Part shown: positions 17,496 to 46,957 of the stretch, piece by piece
Position numbering within the stretch: the stretch's first letter is position 1
How the letters are laid out: every line of letters starts with the position of its first letter
Assembly (NCBI GenBank): GCA_021817005.1
Contig: JAKAWJ010000001.1
Coordinates: forward strand, 62,001 to 126,000
Direction of reading: 5' to 3'
DNA: 64,000 bases
From: an archaeon
Lineage (GTDB): Archaea; Thermoproteota; Thermoprotei_A; Marsarchaeales; Marsarchaeaceae
Made by a program: the position numbers and the translations under genes
Notes under the pieces: model-generated
Database searches by the model: none
What the model was told of the DNA's origin: nothing
Seen by the model: the letters and a program-made list of their open reading frames with translations, nothing else

Positions 17496-18464
17496 GTGCC
17501 CGGTAAGAAGCTAAGAAAGAAGGAGCAGAAGCAGGCCAGAAAGACCCGAAATAAGAGGGCGCTCTATTTGTCCGTGCTAGCGGGAGTAGTAGTAGTCGTG
17601 ATAATACTCGCAAGTGTCTGGTCCAGCCTCTTTCCGCCGGCAAAAAGCCTGGCAGCCTACATTGACACCCCGATTTCTTCATCGCTTTACTCTTCCCTTC
17701 AGCAAATAGCCAGCACCCCAACCTCATACACGAACTCAAGCTATGCAAAGGATATCGTCTTCTATAACCATACCCCTTGGTTTGTCGGTGGAAAGCCATT
17801 GGTTGTATTCATAGGCGCGGAGTACTGCCCCTATTGTGCCTCGTTGAGATGGTCGCTGATACTTTCTCTCATGAAGTTTGGGAATTTCACCGGCCTGGAA
17901 TACATGCTTTCTAGTTCGTCGGATATTGCGGGGAATACCCCAACTTTTACTTTTGTGAACGCAACTTACACGAGCCCGTATGTGGCGCTGCAGACCTTTG
18001 AGAACAAGAACAGAGACTACCAACTGCTCCAAACTGTGCCTTCGAACTATACCAACGTTTGGGATGGCTTCGCGAGCAGTATTGGGAGCCAACCTGGATA
18101 CCCCTTTGTCATATTCGCTGACGAGTACCTGCTCCCTACGTTTTTCATTACGCCATACCGCTATGACGCTTACAACTGGACCCAGATAGTAGCCCAGATT
18201 CAGGATAACACCACACTGGGGGTCATGATTCAGGCAGGGGCAAACCAGATTACTTCAGTTCTGTGCAAGCTCGACAACAACAAACCCGCAAGCGTATGTT
18301 CGGCTTCGGCCATTCAGAGCCTGGAGGCAGGACTCCCAGGCGGTCATTCAGGTTCTGCCGAAAGCTTGGCCACCGGTAAAACCAACACGAGCGCGCAGAT
18401 GTGGGTCGCGGTGCAGTATACGCAGATTGCGTGGATGAGAAATATTTCGGAGAAGATAAGGTAG
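17496..18464 (+). CDS. DUF929-family exported protein with thioredoxin-like CPYC motif
   Basis: A 322-residue protein with a very basic N-terminus ([17 protein letters not shown]), then one membrane helix ([19 protein letters not shown], about residues 24-42), then an extracytoplasmic domain. [20 protein letters not shown] (about 102-121) gives a CxxC active site at the end of a beta strand, as in thioredoxin folds. DUF929 is an archaeal family known mainly by sequence. A role in disulfide formation or repair outside the membrane is inferred from CPYC and from the VKOR-type oxidase encoded convergently next to it. GTG 17496 follows a TATA-like GGCTTTTACC by about 25 bases. Its last 121 bases overlap the antisense VKOR gene. 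Confidence 0.8.
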
Positions 18465-18751
18465 CCTACGAAGACTGCGCCCATGACCCACAGCGGAAGA
18501 AGAAATTCCTTCAGGGAGCCTCCCCCCAAGCCCAGAGCGAGCACTGCTACGAACCATAAAAGTCCCAGCCCAGCCACGGGAACCCCGAGCAGCCTGCTGT
18601 AGGGGCTTGAAGTTACCTTGGCGCAGTTGATTACGCCGGTCGAAGGGCAATTGAGGGGGATGTGGGGGTCTAGGGATTGGAGCGTGAGGTACGCAGAAAG
18701 AGCCATCCCTGCCACGGCAAGAGCAATCAGCATGCCCTTGGTCCATTTCAT
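18344..18751 (-). CDS. VKOR-family thiol oxidase
   Basis: A 135-residue integral membrane protein with about four helices. It carries the VKOR cysteine pattern: loop cysteines in [14 protein letters not shown] and the catalytic pair in [10 protein letters not shown] near the C-terminus. Prokaryotic VKOR homologues re-oxidise a thioredoxin-fold partner and pass electrons to quinone, replacing DsbB. The obvious partner is the DUF929 protein encoded opposite. An in-frame GTG at 18775 exists, but the TATA box at 18777-18787 adjoins it, so transcription should start near 18755 and ATG 18751 is preferred. The 3' ends of the two genes overlap by 121 bases in antisense. Confidence 0.85.
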
Positions 18752-42806: not shown

Positions 42807-42837
42807 TTAGATATATGGCTCTCAATGTCATATGACA
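42807..42837 (+). promoter_or_regulatory. Promoter and palindromic operator of the mercury operon
   Basis: A TATA box TTAGATATATGG (42807-42818) is followed by the perfect 12-base palindrome TGTCATATGACA (42826-42837), which contains the start codon ATG 42832. An ArsR-type repressor bound there would block transcription initiation, consistent with autoregulation by the first gene of the operon. Confidence 0.6.
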
Positions 42838-43170
42838 ACTGTGTCACTTGAGCTGGTCCAGCCTAAACCCCAAGCACTGTTCTTCCAGGCCATGGCCAAT
42901 CCAGTCAGGATGCAGATTCTCAACCTGCTCAGGGAGAAGGGGAGCCTGAACGTCACACAAATCTGCGCAGGGCTCGGGATGGAGCAGACGCACGTATCGC
43001 ACAACCTCAGGTGCCTTGCCTTCTGCGGGCTGGTAACCGCGAGTAGAGCAGGCAAGTCTAGGGTATACTCAATAAACGCGGAGACAGTGCTGCCACTTCT
43101 CAAGATAGTCGACGTGCACCTGAGAAAGTATGCCGCGAATCTCCTTACCTGTGAAGGGCTGGAGAGGTAG
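42832..43170 (+). CDS. ArsR-family metalloregulator of the mercury operon
   Basis: A 112-residue winged helix-turn-helix protein. ALFFQAMANPVRMQILNLLR, LNVTQICAGLGMEQTHVSHN and LRCLAFCGLVTASRAGKSRV cover the ArsR fold. Cysteines C45, C61, C65 and C107 are candidate Hg(II) ligands. C61 and C65 occupy the recognition-helix/alpha3 area where ArsR sensors bind metal. Archaeal mer operons are known to use an ArsR-type MerR rather than the bacterial MerR family, which fits. It is the first gene of the operon, six bases before merA, with a palindrome overlapping its start. Confidence 0.85.
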   Translation: MTTVSLELVQPKPQALFFQAMANPVRMQILNLLREKGSLNVTQICAGLGMEQTHVSHNLRCLAFCGLVTASRAGKSRVYSINAETVLPLLKIVDVHLRKYAANLLTCEGLER

Positions 43171-43176
43171 ATTCTT

Positions 43177-44601
43177 GTGAGACACTTCGAACTAATTATT
43201 CTTGGGCAGGGTTCTGCCGCGTTTGCCGCCGCTATAAAAGCGAACGAGCTCGGTGTAAGCACCGCCATGATTGGCGGGAACGCGACAGAGGGAACTCTAA
43301 TCGGAGGGACATGCGTCAACGTGGGCTGCGTCCCAAGCAAGCGTCTGCTCTCAGTGGGAACATCATTCTACAATGGAGTCAGGAACACGTTTAAGGGGAT
43401 AGAATACAGAAGCGGCAAACTCAACTTCCAAAAGGTCATGCAGGAGAAGGAAAGGCTAGTCAGGAAACTCAGAAAGCAAAAGTATGCTGAAGTGCTTAAG
43501 GGCCTTGAAAAGGTAACTTATTACCCTGTCAAAGGGCGATTCGTTTCAAGAAACGAAGTAGCAGCCGGGGAAGAAAGACTTCAGGCCGAGAAATTTCTGG
43601 TAGCTACTGGGGCTCGTGCCAGCATACCTTCCATAGACGGATTAGACAGAGTGGACTACTTGACCAACGAACAAGCCCTCAGTCTGCGAGAGCTTCCCCG
43701 GTCTATGTGCGTCGTGGGAGGGCGGGCACTTGGGCTCGAGTTCGCTCAGATGTACGCGCAGTTTGGGACGAAGGTCACCGTGTTGCAGCGTAGCGAGAGA
43801 ATTCTTCCCGATGACGAGCCCGAAATCTCCAAGGCACTGATGCGCCATCTCGAGAAGTTGGGAATTGAAATCTTCACAGGCGTGACGGTGAATCGAGTCT
43901 CGCCGAAGGGAAGCGGGATTATGGGGAAGGAGGTAAGCTTCACGTCCAAAGGGAAATCTAGGAAAGTTCTCTGCGACCAGCTCCTCCTAGCTACAGGTAG
44001 GCGACCGAACACCGACGGGCTGGACCTTGAAAACGCGGGAGTAAAAACTGATGCCAAAGGATTTGTTGCTGTAGACGATAAGATGCAGACATCGGCCAAA
44101 AACGTTTGGGCCGCCGGTGACGTTACGGGTGAGCCCATGCTCGAGACCGTCGCAGCAAAGGAAGGAGCAATCGCCGTCCACAACGCATTCAGTAGCGGAA
44201 CAAAGAAGATCAATTTCGAAGAGATCCCTTCAGCGGTTTTTACCTACCCTGAAGTAGCGAGGGTTGGCTATACCGAATCGGAGGCGCTCGACAGGGGGAT
44301 AAAGTGCGCCTGTCGCGTCCTCCCGTTTGACTTAGTGCCGAAGGCACACATAATCGAAGAGACGCGCGGGCTAGTGAAGATGGTGGTGGACGGCGACTCC
44401 AAGCGGATTGTAGGAGTGCACATCTTTGGGCCTCATGCAGCCGACCTGATTCAGGAGGGCGCGCTTGCTGTAAAGAACAGGCTCACAATCGATGACATAA
44501 TCGACACGGTTCACGTCTTTCCGACGCTCTCGGAGTCGATCAAGCTTGCGGCCCAGTCTTTCTATGTTGATATCGGGAAGATGAGCTGCTGCGTAGAATA
44601 G
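43177..44601 (+). CDS. merA: Mercuric reductase
   Basis: A 474-residue FAD/NAD(P)H disulfide reductase that reduces Hg(II) to Hg(0). It has an FAD-binding start (LIILGQGSAAFAAAIKANEL), the redox-active disulfide GGTCVNVGCVPSK (C46, C51), an NAD(P)H-binding region (SMCVVGGRALGLEFAQMYAQ) and the second FAD motif (NVWAAGDVTGEPM). The diagnostic vicinal cysteine pair is at the C-terminus (MSCCVE, C471-C472), which separates MerA from lipoamide and glutathione reductases. The N-terminal HMA (NmerA) domain found in many bacterial MerA proteins is absent. GTG 43177 is the start. It is followed closely by four co-directional genes. Confidence 0.95.
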   Translation: MRHFELIILGQGSAAFAAAIKANELGVSTAMIGGNATEGTLIGGTCVNVGCVPSKRLLSVGTSFYNGVRNTFKGIEYRSGKLNFQKVMQEKERLVRKLRKQKYAEVLKGLEKVTYYPVKGRFVSRNEVAAGEERLQAEKFLVATGARASIPSIDGLDRVDYLTNEQALSLRELPRSMCVVGGRALGLEFAQMYAQFGTKVTVLQRSERILPDDEPEISKALMRHLEKLGIEIFTGVTVNRVSPKGSGIMGKEVSFTSKGKSRKVLCDQLLLATGRRPNTDGLDLENAGVKTDAKGFVAVDDKMQTSAKNVWAAGDVTGEPMLETVAAKEGAIAVHNAFSSGTKKINFEEIPSAVFTYPEVARVGYTESEALDRGIKCACRVLPFDLVPKAHIIEETRGLVKMVVDGDSKRIVGVHIFGPHAADLIQEGALAVKNRLTIDDIIDTVHVFPTLSESIKLAAQSFYVDIGKMSCCVE

Positions 44602-44618
44602 GAGGAAAGTAATTCCAC

Positions 44619-44951
44619 ATGCCGGACTCGAGAAACCAAACCAGCAATGGTGCAAGGAATCTCAACATGGACGAAGAAAGGGAAGGAGTGTCGGGGTCTC
44701 GTTTAACCCCTGTATGGTCTTTCTTAGTATTACTTGCGGCGGTAGCATGCTGCGGTCTGCCCGTTCTGATTGTAATTGCAGGCGGGTTCGCTTCTATTTC
44801 GGTGGTCGCAGGGAGGTACGAACTTTTCACTGCTGGAGCGGCTGTCTCTACTGCGATAGTGGCCGTAACCGGTATTGCGCTTAGAGTGAGAAAGAGAAGT
44901 AAGAGTCCACAAGTGGAACCGGTTGGTGATAACGGTGACGGCTCGAAGTAA
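44619..44951 (+). CDS. MerT/MerF-like two-helix membrane protein
   Basis: A 110-residue protein with a hydrophilic N-terminus and two membrane helices (about residues 33-58 and 66-90). The first helix carries a vicinal pair in AAVACCGLPVLIVIAGG (C44-C45), the arrangement used by MerT, MerC and MerF to pass Hg(II) through the membrane. A basic and acidic tail follows. It sits 17 bases after merA, preceded by a purine-rich AGGAGGAAAG that looks like a ribosome-binding site. Start ATG 44619 or ATG 44667. The mercury role is inferred from motif and position. Confidence 0.7.
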   Translation: MPDSRNQTSNGARNLNMDEEREGVSGSRLTPVWSFLVLLAAVACCGLPVLIVIAGGFASISVVAGRYELFTAGAAVSTAIVAVTGIALRVRKRSKSPQVEPVGDNGDGSK

Positions 44952-44984
44952 TTGGAATCAAATTTCGATGGAGGTCAAACTTGA

Positions 44985-45512
44985 TTGACGGCTCACAGGT
45001 TGCACCATCTTAATTACGAACGCTCTGCGCTCGAAGCCCTGTTCGGGGGGAGGGGTTACCTTCTCTTCTTTATTGCTCTTTCAGCGTCAGTTTCGGTGCT
45101 GTACATGTTCCTGCTTCCCTCGCTCCCATTGGGAGGGTTCGTGTTCTACGCAATCGAGTTCATAACTCCCATTCAGGTGGCCTTCGCGCTAATCTTCGGT
45201 GTGCTGATAGGCCTGGTCGTCACCCTCAACGTCTACGCGTTCAGATTGCGCGCGTCCTCAGCAAAGAGTCTCACGGTTGGTTCAGTACTTGCGAGCCTAG
45301 TCAACGGTCTCTGCTGCACGCCGATTATACCAAGCCTGATCGCGATGACGGGAGTCTCGACGCCGGTGCTCTACTCGATATCCCCTAGGATTCAGCTCTT
45401 CTTTGAAACCAATTCGGAATACTTCTACTCACTGTCGGTGGTGCTTCTACTCATCTCAATCCATTACCTGAGCCGGAGTATCTCCGCGTGCTGCTTGGAA
45501 AAAAGAGGCTAG
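44985..45512 (+). CDS. Uncharacterised membrane protein with Cys-Cys helix motif (paralogue of 46406-46957)
   Basis: A 175-residue integral membrane protein with about four or five helices (near residues 25-45, 50-62, 65-87, 97-121 and 147-164). The third core helix contains SLVNGLCCTPIIPSLIAMTG (C110-C111), and a second pair CC (169-170) lies at the C-terminus. It shares with the 46406 product the order hydrophobic start, L-x-LN-x-FRLR-type helix, helix with CC-x-P-I, then C-terminal helix. I do not recognise the family. TTG 44985 is the start. Its position in the mer operon and the buried Cys pair suggest metal or thiol handling. Confidence 0.75.
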   Translation: MTAHRLHHLNYERSALEALFGGRGYLLFFIALSASVSVLYMFLLPSLPLGGFVFYAIEFITPIQVAFALIFGVLIGLVVTLNVYAFRLRASSAKSLTVGSVLASLVNGLCCTPIIPSLIAMTGVSTPVLYSISPRIQLFFETNSEYFYSLSVVLLLISIHYLSRSISACCLEKRG

Positions 45513-46279
45513 TGCAGTTGGCAACGTGTAGCGAGTGCGGGAAGGAGTTTAGAACGGTTGGAGCCCTCCGCCAGCACTACTCGTCCAAGCACGCTGGGAC
45601 AGCGCCGCCACAGAATCTGGCCGGTAATGGAATGGAGAAACGAAGAAAGTCTGGGAGACGGCATAATGGAAGAGGGGGAACGAACAGAAGGCTCATTCTG
45701 ACATTTGGCGTGGTCGCCCTCTTGGTCGCTATAGGTGCCGGGGCATTGGTCCTTTATCATGGGCATTCTGCCGACGCCCCCACTGAGAGAACTCCTCCGA
45801 AGGCAGTGACGGGAATCTACGCGGGTGACAAAGCTCCGAACATGCCCCTCTATCTCACTAACGGAACGCCTACATCTCTGAGCAGTTTCCAGGGTCACAC
45901 TGTCCTCGTTTGGATAATAGCTACTTGGTGTCCGGGATGTCAGGAGACTGCTCCGATAATAGCCTCGCACTACTACTCGCAGCTGCGCTCGGAGGGCGTC
46001 ATTCTGGTGACGGTGGAGGACTACAACGACCTTGGCTACTCCGGTCCCACCATGGTTCAGTTCGCGAGCAAATACGCTGGAGGCGCTGGCAACTATCCTG
46101 GCTGGTTCTTCGCGGATACGTCCCAGAGCGCCACTTATACCTACAATCCGCAGGCTGACCTCGACATATGGTATCTCATAAGCCCATCTGGGACGGTTGT
46201 GACCAGCGGCCTTAATCTCGGCACGACCATACAAAGCGCGATATCCGCTGCGAATAATCTCCAACCGGCGACCGCGTAG
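45512..46279 (+). CDS. Membrane-anchored C2H2 zinc finger-thioredoxin fusion protein
   Basis: A 255-residue protein in three parts. Residues 6-27 form a C2H2 finger (C-x2-C-x12-H-x4-H; CSECGKEFRTVGALRQHYSS). After a basic Gly/Arg/Lys-rich linker a membrane helix follows (LILTFGVVALLVAIGAGALV, about 62-82). The C-terminal domain is a TlpA/redoxin-like thioredoxin fold (NMPLYLTNGTPTSLSSFQG, then WIIATWCPGCQETAP). With the finger inside, the CPGC site would face outward. GTG 45512 shares its first base with the upstream stop; GTG 45488 would add eight residues. It lies between two paralogous Cys-Cys membrane proteins in the mercury operon. Confidence 0.75.
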   Translation: MQLATCSECGKEFRTVGALRQHYSSKHAGTAPPQNLAGNGMEKRRKSGRRHNGRGGTNRRLILTFGVVALLVAIGAGALVLYHGHSADAPTERTPPKAVTGIYAGDKAPNMPLYLTNGTPTSLSSFQGHTVLVWIIATWCPGCQETAPIIASHYYSQLRSEGVILVTVEDYNDLGYSGPTMVQFASKYAGGAGNYPGWFFADTSQSATYTYNPQADLDIWYLISPSGTVVTSGLNLGTTIQSAISAANNLQPATA

Positions 46280-46405
46280 CAAGTGAACGAAGGAGAGTGA
46301 AACCGTATCACGGTCAAGGCTCCCCGGCAAACAGCGGCCCAAGAGAGGCATAGTATAGCTTCGCTTCTCGGGTCGATACTTCATGCACGCAGATACAAGC
46401 TTCTG

Positions 46406-46957
46406 ATGGTCGGTAGCTGGTTGGGTTACTGGTTGCTATACACCGTCTCTGGGGGTATGTTCTTCTATTATTCATCTGATATCACTCCCCTCCTCCATGA
46501 GTACGGTGTGCCCAACCCCTTTTTCTTTAACTCGTTTTCCAGCTTCTCAGGCATTTACAATTCTGCGATTGTCTGGTATCCGAACGGACACCTTCAGGTG
46601 AACATAATCTACGGACCGTTCGTCTTCTCGCTGGTTCTCGCCACGCTCTTCTCCCTGAACACAATACTGACCGTTTTCAGCCTTAGGTTCTCCCAGTTCA
46701 CAAGGAGGGCCGGGCCGTTCGGATTTCTCGCCCTGGTGCCCGCACTCTTCAGCGGAGGCTGTTGCAGTGTACCAATCGGCCTTGCACTCTTCGGTGTATT
46801 CGCCCCGACGGCCGGTCTCGTTACGTTAGTGTATGATTATCCGTACCTGACGAACCTGGCATTCGTAATTCTGATTTCGCTCTCGCTCCTTATTGTGGGC
46901 AGAAGGGTGTCCAGGATGAGTGGCAGGCAATCTGGAGCGGAGAGACAGAGTAGGTGA
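46406..46957 (+). CDS. Uncharacterised membrane protein with Cys-Cys helix motif (paralogue of 44985-45512)
   Basis: At least 183 residues with about four helices (near 4-22, 70-95, 105-131 and 148-166). LVPALFSGGCCSVPIGLALF places C119-C120 inside the third helix, matching C110-C111 of the paralogue. The frame is open and sensible upstream of ATG 46406 (SIASLLGSILHARRYKLLMV aligns with the N-terminus of the paralogue) back to about 46305, but no ATG, GTG or TTG is found there. The true start may therefore be non-canonical or lost by a frameshift from GTG 46300. Last gene of the mercury operon; function unknown. Confidence 0.72.
   Translation: MVGSWLGYWLLYTVSGGMFFYYSSDITPLLHEYGVPNPFFFNSFSSFSGIYNSAIVWYPNGHLQVNIIYGPFVFSLVLATLFSLNTILTVFSLRFSQFTRRAGPFGFLALVPALFSGGCCSVPIGLALFGVFAPTAGLVTLVYDYPYLTNLAFVILISLSLLIVGRRVSRMSGRQSGAERQSR

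Follow-up and report, generated by a model that had tools for sequence, protein, structure and literature searches.

MerA is now thought to have originated in thermophilic archaea, which raises the question of how Hg(II) first reached the enzyme. Archaeal mer loci have been described as consisting mostly of merA alone, and Hg(II) transporters, a single MerP aside, as missing from archaea (Boyd and Barkay 2012, PMC3466566; Christakis 2021, PMC8261052). The mer operon of Sulfolobus contains merA, an ArsR-type regulator and a TRASH protein, the last of which was proposed there as a trafficking factor (PMC3466566). The vicinal cysteine pair (CC) of MerT and MerF is their indispensable Hg(II) site, and transport requires no more than MerF (PMC5500634).

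The window analyzed here, a 64,000-nucleotide stretch from a Marsarchaeota-type genome, carries at 42832-46957 a close tandem of six genes, all of which were confirmed (Table 1). As in Sulfolobus, an archaeal merA stands under an ArsR-family regulator. Here, however, it is followed by a small two-helix CC protein, a membrane-anchored thioredoxin and two further CC membrane proteins (CC-A and CC-B). We consider it fairly probable that these genes form a complete archaeal operon for Hg(II) detoxification that includes a dedicated uptake module, which would work like MerP-MerT/MerF. The unnamed CC proteins and the outward-facing thioredoxin would then probably be the means of mercury import so far believed to be missing from archaea. 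Spacing between the genes is small, as an earlier note on this DNA had it: given the ORF starts, gaps of 6, 17 and 33 bp are followed by an overlap (CC-A/thioredoxin) and by 126 bp before CC-B.

Table 1. Genes of the cluster, with positions in the window.
Feature	Position	Strand	Evidence
Metalloregulator of the ArsR/SmtB family, opening the cluster	42832..43170	+	PF01022, NF033788
merA, mercuric reductase	43177..44601	+	TIGR02053
Small two-helix CC protein (MerF/MerT-like)	44619..44951	+	Alignment, hhalign
CC-A, four-helix CC protein	44985..45512	+	12-row alignment; topology by hydropathy and charge; bacterial and haloarchaeal homologues
Membrane-anchored thioredoxin/redoxin, TlpA/ResA type	45512..46279 (mechanical ORF from 45488)	+	PF08534, PF00578
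CC-B, CC-A paralogue, four helices	46307..46957 (given ATG 46406)	+	Alignments, paralogy with CC-A

The regulator matched HTH_5 (3.6e-12, 46.4 bits against a cut-off of 22) and, also above cut-off, HTH_metalloreg (79.4 bits). MerA (474 aa), at 564 bits (cut-off 454), was the only protein in the genome to pass; it lacks an NmerA domain and has the CVNVGC active site and, in SCCVE, the C-terminal vicinal cysteines, so that the initial identification of both genes holds. The small CC protein carries C44-C45 in its first helix, and C44, C45, G46 and P48 are invariant in its alignment; a second CC at the C-terminus, frequent among homologues, is lost in the window's copy. It had been described as MerT/MerF-like, and the cysteine pair and profile likeness are in line with this (hhalign, 94% against bacterial MerF and 74% against MerT, the latter 51% with cysteines masked). 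Membership in the MerF family does not follow, as no MerF model in Pfam or NCBIfam matched the protein.

The thioredoxin matched Redoxin (5.5e-12) and AhpC-TSA (4.2e-8), both above cut-off, and scored below the cut-offs of the ResA/TlpA NCBIfam models. It combines an N-terminal C2H2 zinc finger with an ATWCPGC motif, and a charge bias around the transmembrane segment at residues 62-80 (13 K/R before, 5 after) predicts an N-in/C-out orientation. Its start is probably the GTG that shares one base with the CC-A stop (TAGTG). CC-A directly precedes the thioredoxin gene in all 12 named loci.

The cysteine pairs reported earlier in the two proteins flanking the thioredoxin are present, within a helix, at C110-C111 of CC-A and at C119-C120 of CC-B (numbered from ATG 46406). 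Both pairs lie in predicted TM3, and CC-A has a second pair, C169-C170, at its C-terminus, in a tail predicted from hydropathy and charge to be cytosolic. Neither protein matched a family in Pfam, NCBIfam or PHROG. The pair in the transmembrane segment is invariant in 12 of 12 close CC-A homologues and is kept in distant and bacterial ones; judged from these sequences, the pattern is therefore not due to chance. It is likewise invariant in the CC-B alignments, where a homologous N-terminal extension puts the likely start of CC-B some 33 codons before the given ATG, which would narrow the gap after the thioredoxin to about 30 bp. The resemblance between CC-A and CC-B noted previously is weak in a BLAST comparison (23% identity across 64 aa, E 0.03) and strong when enlarged profiles are compared (95.9%, and 93.8% with all cysteines masked), which marks the two as paralogues. 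AlphaFold models were poor (pLDDT 64 for CC-A and 51 for CC-B) and lent structural support to neither protein. A Foldseek search of the PDB with the uncertain CC-A model gave nothing (best E 2.6), nor was anything useful returned when PDB sequences were searched with a CC-A profile (7f47, E 0.41).

Among described proteins, MerF (PF11431; PDB 2M67, 2MOZ, 2LJ2, 2H3O, 1WAZ) resembles CC-A in its mid-helix CC, one more helix and a CC in the cytosolic tail, and it also occurs in mer operons. It has two helices, whereas CC-A and CC-B have four and a thioredoxin partner, and the MerF models of Pfam and NCBIfam matched neither. Alignment to bacterial MerF with hhalign gave 91-95% for CC-A (94%), CC-B and the small CC protein, values that are not independent of the cysteines; in controls, 75 membrane decoys reached at most 3% (single-sequence form) and block shuffles of CC-A and CC-B at most 36%. 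With cysteines masked, the values fell to 20% (CC-A) and 46% (CC-B) in the same register, compared with 86.5% for a MerT-MerF control, and to 1-10% for both proteins against MerT. Common descent with MerF or MerT is thus not established, since the similarity largely vanishes with the cysteines. We do not claim homology of CC-A and CC-B to MerF from hhalign values of 91-94%, which rest mainly on the cysteine pairs.

The MerT (PF02411)/MerP system likewise combines a CC in a helix with an extracytoplasmic CxxC partner and merA in the same operon. MerT has three helices, compared with four predicted in CC-A and CC-B; no Pfam MerT model matched, and of the other MerT models merT_RC607 alone responded, to CC-B (E 0.18, 12 bits against a cut-off of 130). 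The partner is an HMA protein in the MerT system and a redoxin here, except in two genomes (G308 and G372) where the CC protein adjoining merA bears a C-terminal HMA (MerP-like) domain, a fusion resembling MerTP. In the literature searched, we found no description of a redoxin within a mer operon. The coupling of a Cys-pair membrane protein to an outward-facing TlpA-like thioredoxin recalls CcdA/DsbD with TlpA/ResA. CcdA has six helices and its cysteines lie on separate ones, and CC-A and CC-B gave no match to PF02683 (DsbD/CcdA) at E ≤10. Membership in VKOR/DsbB was also rejected (hhalign 0.1-0.2%; CC instead of CxxC).

Of the 12 named archaeal loci with CC-A followed by the thioredoxin, 8 have merA no more than 4 kb away, and three of the other four genomes encode merA elsewhere. 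In a reverse test starting from merA (398 Thermoproteota genomes, 54 with merA, 56 merA loci), a CC-in-helix protein with a neighboring thioredoxin adjoined 11 of the 56 loci, in six families. Genomes with the CC type were more often merA-positive (9/11) than others (45/387; Fisher P = 4e-7, phylogeny not corrected for). Many archaea have merA without the module: in the class's principal merA-bearing family, probably Sulfolobaceae, the pair is absent from all 19 sampled merA loci, one of which has a CC protein by itself. About half of the CC-thioredoxin pairs found by profile lie away from merA. In class-wide single-sequence searches, weak matches (E 0.001-0.1, many with stop codons) were treated as noise. 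In a large, ammonia-oxidizer-like family (f18, probably Nitrosopumilaceae), relatives of CC-B show CPTC where CC would stand and lie next to no mer genes; we treated them as a branch apart.

CC proteins of this kind also adjoin merA in two Thaumarchaeota MAGs, in Haloarchaea and on plasmids of acidophilic proteobacteria. Plasmids of Acidiphilium multivorum (pACMV1 of strain AIU301) and Acidithiobacillus ferrooxidans carry merR-merA-redoxin-CC-A, and a signal peptide is apparent in the redoxin from Acidiphilium. On a Halorussus plasmid, ArsR, a small CC protein, a zinc finger/redoxin/DUF3105 protein, CC-A and a further CC protein lie in this order beside merA and merB. The annotation of these Acidiphilium, Acidithiobacillus and Halorussus clusters lists neither merT nor merP. 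Whether CC-A or the redoxin of Acidiphilium served as query, exactly the same five records were returned, and in all five plasmid records CC-A and thioredoxin lie inside merA clusters. Linkage to merA thus recurs across archaea and bacteria. The earlier proposal of a new transporter or thiol-relay family working with MerA gains support from this recurrence, with the transport step deduced; no described family matches, and homologues occur in more than mercury-free contexts.

In the proposed mechanism, for which we infer Hg(II) binding, transport direction and hand-off order, Hg(II) would derepress the operon through ArsR. The CxxC thiols of the extracytoplasmic, membrane-anchored thioredoxin, standing in for MerP, would capture Hg(II) or keep the receiving thiols reduced. 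The next acceptor may be the vicinal pair midway along TM3 in CC-A and/or CC-B, or else the small CC protein. Hg(II) would then move to the CC in the cytosolic C-terminal tail of CC-A and on to the C-terminal cysteines of MerA, for reduction to Hg(0). Tentatively, and short of even confidence, we suggest an undescribed class of mercury importer, spread among archaea and plasmid-exchanged with acidophilic bacteria and haloarchaea, in which an extracytoplasmic thioredoxin replaces MerP and hands Hg(II) by thiol exchange to a four-helix CC membrane protein unrelated by descent to MerT/MerF. The CC/thioredoxin family is a candidate answer to how Hg(II) first reached MerA. It can be tested in cultivable hosts, because A. 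multivorum AIU301 and Halorussus carry it, and would give names to mer-operon proteins that at present are labeled "hypothetical".

The main rival to uptake is a thiol-redox relay, in which CC-A and CC-B would supply the extracytoplasmic thioredoxin with electrons from across the membrane, as CcdA/DsbD does for TlpA, and so repair or protect surface thiols against Hg(II) without moving metal. CC-A and thioredoxin are inseparable neighbors, and PF02683 is absent from 41 genomes of the class, so that the thioredoxin would otherwise be without an electron donor. Pairs away from merA and the CxxC in the same helix of the f18 relatives also fit a relay. However, a vicinal CC makes a poor disulfide and is a classic Hg(II) ligand, and CC-A shows neither a Pfam DsbD match nor similarity to VKOR, of which the genome has a separate copy. 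The second, MerF-like pair in the cytosolic tail and the MerP-like domain fused to the CC protein at two merA loci also count against the relay, which we regard as unlikely.

Within the metal-handling readings, export, sequestration or sensing of Hg(II) by the CC proteins seems very improbable. Direction is unreadable from sequence, but MerA is cytosolic and consumes Hg(II), the tail CC of CC-A faces the cytosol by charge bias, and, to our knowledge, the characterized CC-helix Mer proteins are importers without exception. Handling of a different substrate among soft metals and metalloids (Cu, Ag, As or organomercury), or a broad thiophilic-metal system that merely shares merA's ArsR regulon, is somewhat less remote, although still improbable. 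The ArsR type of the regulator, distant pairs without adjacent merA and two loci (L050 and L051) with the order ArsR-small CC protein-CC-A-thioredoxin and merA elsewhere in the genome are compatible with it. Vicinal CC pairs, on the other hand, favor Hg(II) (PMC5500634), and the five plasmid records place the module within mer clusters, by MerR in bacteria and with merB in Halorussus.

At 42832-46957, all six open reading frames described in the earlier note were found with their cysteine pairs: ArsR, MerA, a two-helix MerF/MerT-like small CC protein, two four-helix membrane proteins with a vicinal cysteine pair (CC) in the third helix (CC-A and CC-B) and a thioredoxin. ArsR and MerA passed curated cut-offs in family model searches, whereas CC-A and CC-B matched no family in Pfam, NCBIfam or PHROG searches, apart from a faint match of merT_RC607 to CC-B (E 0.18) spanning the CC helix. 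From its N-terminus, the thioredoxin product has a C2H2 zinc finger, then a segment rich in lysine and arginine and a single helix, followed by a redoxin domain carrying WCPGC; based on the positive-inside rule applied to the basic segment before the helix, the redoxin domain is predicted to face outward. Its start is probably GTG 45512, overlapping the CC-A stop as TAGTG, and the CC-B start was placed upstream because an N-terminal extension is common to its homologues. Elsewhere in the window, a VKOR-family protein is encoded (PF07884, 7.8e-26; 18380-18730, minus strand). The host genome (1.93 Mb) has MAG FK5.bin12 as its nearest named relative, and Marsarchaeota G1 BE_D and Marsarchaeota G2 ECH_B_1 are among its relatives at family level.

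Features of the CC-protein/thioredoxin module and related loci
Feature	Position or loci	Strand	Remark
CC-A	44985-45512	+	Outside Pfam/NCBIfam/PHROG families
CC-B	46406-46957 as called	+	Start probably ~33 codons upstream of 46406
merA loci with the pair	Window, L121, L128, L130, L134, L148, L149, L154, L156, L165, L166		
CC protein with C-terminal HMA (MerP-like) domain	L165:2802-3587, L166:7444-8190		Beside merA and thioredoxin, two related archaeal genomes

A CC-A alignment scanned against 84,980 named genomes matched 11 of them at 12 loci; the hosts were Marsarchaeota, two Thaumarchaeota MAGs and other archaeal MAGs. The thioredoxin immediately followed CC-A at all 12, and CC-B shared the locus at eight (divergent BE_D version included). 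The earlier note had proposed checking for recurrence of the CC proteins beside merA, which was borne out at 8/12 named loci (≤4 kb) and also on plasmids. Gene order varies among lineages (merA, small CC, CC-A, thioredoxin, CC-B in REEA66; small CC, CC-A, thioredoxin, CC-B, merA in Centralia_MAG_53; CC-A, thioredoxin, CC-B-like, merA in BE_D), and hence linkage was retained through rearrangement. Three of the four CC-A loci lacking an adjacent merA are in genomes with an over-cut-off merA elsewhere; in ECH_B_1, a separate contig carries that merA, then CC-B. A second mer region in a sister genome (G001:C3) comprises merA, CC-A, thioredoxin-DUF929 and a CC-B homologue broken by two stop codons (L011:1501-1932), an apparent pseudogene. 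A further merA-ArsR pair in REEA66 adjoins a CC-B-like protein with CPCY instead of CC (L195:7850-8317; weak MerTP_fusion match, E 0.02).

Over-cut-off merA was present in 54 of 398 Thermoproteota genomes. We searched 56 merA loci (~6 kb each side where the contig permitted) for a helix-CC protein adjoining a thioredoxin, and found the pair within ~3.5 kb of merA at 11, across six GTDB families; genome G437 has it beside each of its two merA copies. Genomes with a CC-type profile match were merA-positive in 9 of 11 cases versus 45 of 387 others (p 4e-7, ignoring shared ancestry), although the positive genomes span several families. The CC-B/merA association was weaker when matches from f18 (probably Nitrosopumilaceae; CPTC, not CC) were included (6/19, p 0.03). 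Conserved among these f18 genomes is a membrane protein of ~275 aa resembling CC-B (L077:1237-2058; similar loci L071-L084), with CPTC in a helix and CC in a loop; it has no Pfam family, and its loci had no adjacent mer genes or thioredoxin. Near merA, genome G039 (f9, probably Sulfolobaceae) encodes a four-helix protein of 185 aa whose CC lies within a helix; no thioredoxin accompanies it (L158:4142-4696).

The paralogy of CC-A and CC-B claimed earlier held: enlarged profiles aligned near full length at 95.9%, and the score stayed at 93.8% with all cysteines masked. Bacterial MerF (nine sequences) scored 91-95% against CC-A, CC-B and the small CC protein, compared with ≤3% for 75 membrane-protein decoys in a single-sequence form of the test. 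With cysteines masked, scores against MerF in the same register fell to ~20% (CC-A) and ~46% (CC-B), versus 86.5% for a true MerT-MerF pair; hence, the two proteins probably work like MerF but are not classed as MerF. The small CC protein (starting at 44619) is nearer, scoring 51% against MerT when masked.

Gene content, linkage, paralogy and sequence conservation were observed; from these we infer topology, Hg(II) binding, transport direction and hand-off order as follows. Charge bias places both CC-A ends on the cytosolic side, with the C110-C111 pair midway through the membrane and the C169-C170 pair cytosolic, matching the MerF arrangement of a helix CC, the essential Hg(II) site (PMC5500634), and a cytosolic tail CC. 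Hg(II) would be captured first by the CxxC of the outward-facing thioredoxin, then pass to the helix CC, the tail CC and finally the C-terminal CC of MerA. The strongest rival is that the membrane proteins are an electron relay for thioredoxin, a reading favoured by the lack of DsbD/CcdA across 41 genomes from the class. However, the cysteines are vicinal rather than spaced, the CC proteins lack VKOR similarity, a separate VKOR is present, and some CC proteins are fused to HMA domains. Hg(II) uptake feeding MerA is an already known function class; the CC protein family and its thioredoxin partner appear to be new. Archaea were reported to be without mer transporters, one MerP excepted (Boyd and Barkay, 2012), and early archaeal lineages tend to have MerA alone (Christakis et al., 2021). 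Our literature search found no paper describing such a module, although papers outside that search may exist.

Among 72,556 plasmids, tblastn of the window CC-A matched two from Acidiphilium multivorum and one from Acidithiobacillus ferrooxidans; the Acidiphilium homologue as query added only two Halorussus plasmids, and the redoxin retrieved the same five records. In the bacterial clusters, a MerR-type regulator comes first and merA, here with an NmerA domain, precedes redoxin and CC-A; pACMV1 has a hypothetical gene between regulator and merA. The Halorussus clusters, near the window cluster in composition, have merB-merA on one side and, divergently, genes for ArsR, a small CC protein, a protein combining C2H2, redoxin and DUF3105 domains, CC-A, and a membrane protein with CCCC. 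Neither merT nor merP is annotated in the five clusters. The Acidiphilium redoxin has an apparent N-terminal signal peptide (judged by eye), supporting an outside location. On Gram-positive plasmids (H96 Metabacillus, H98 Enterococcus), merF is annotated, against its stated absence from Gram-positive bacteria (PMC5500634). Marsarchaeota G1/G2 relatives encode a thioredoxin whose C-terminal DUF929 domain contains CPYC (L035:6810-8222, L038:13628-15067, L039:8766-9950), where the Halorussus protein has DUF3105; both domains, without assigned function, may belong to mercury handling.
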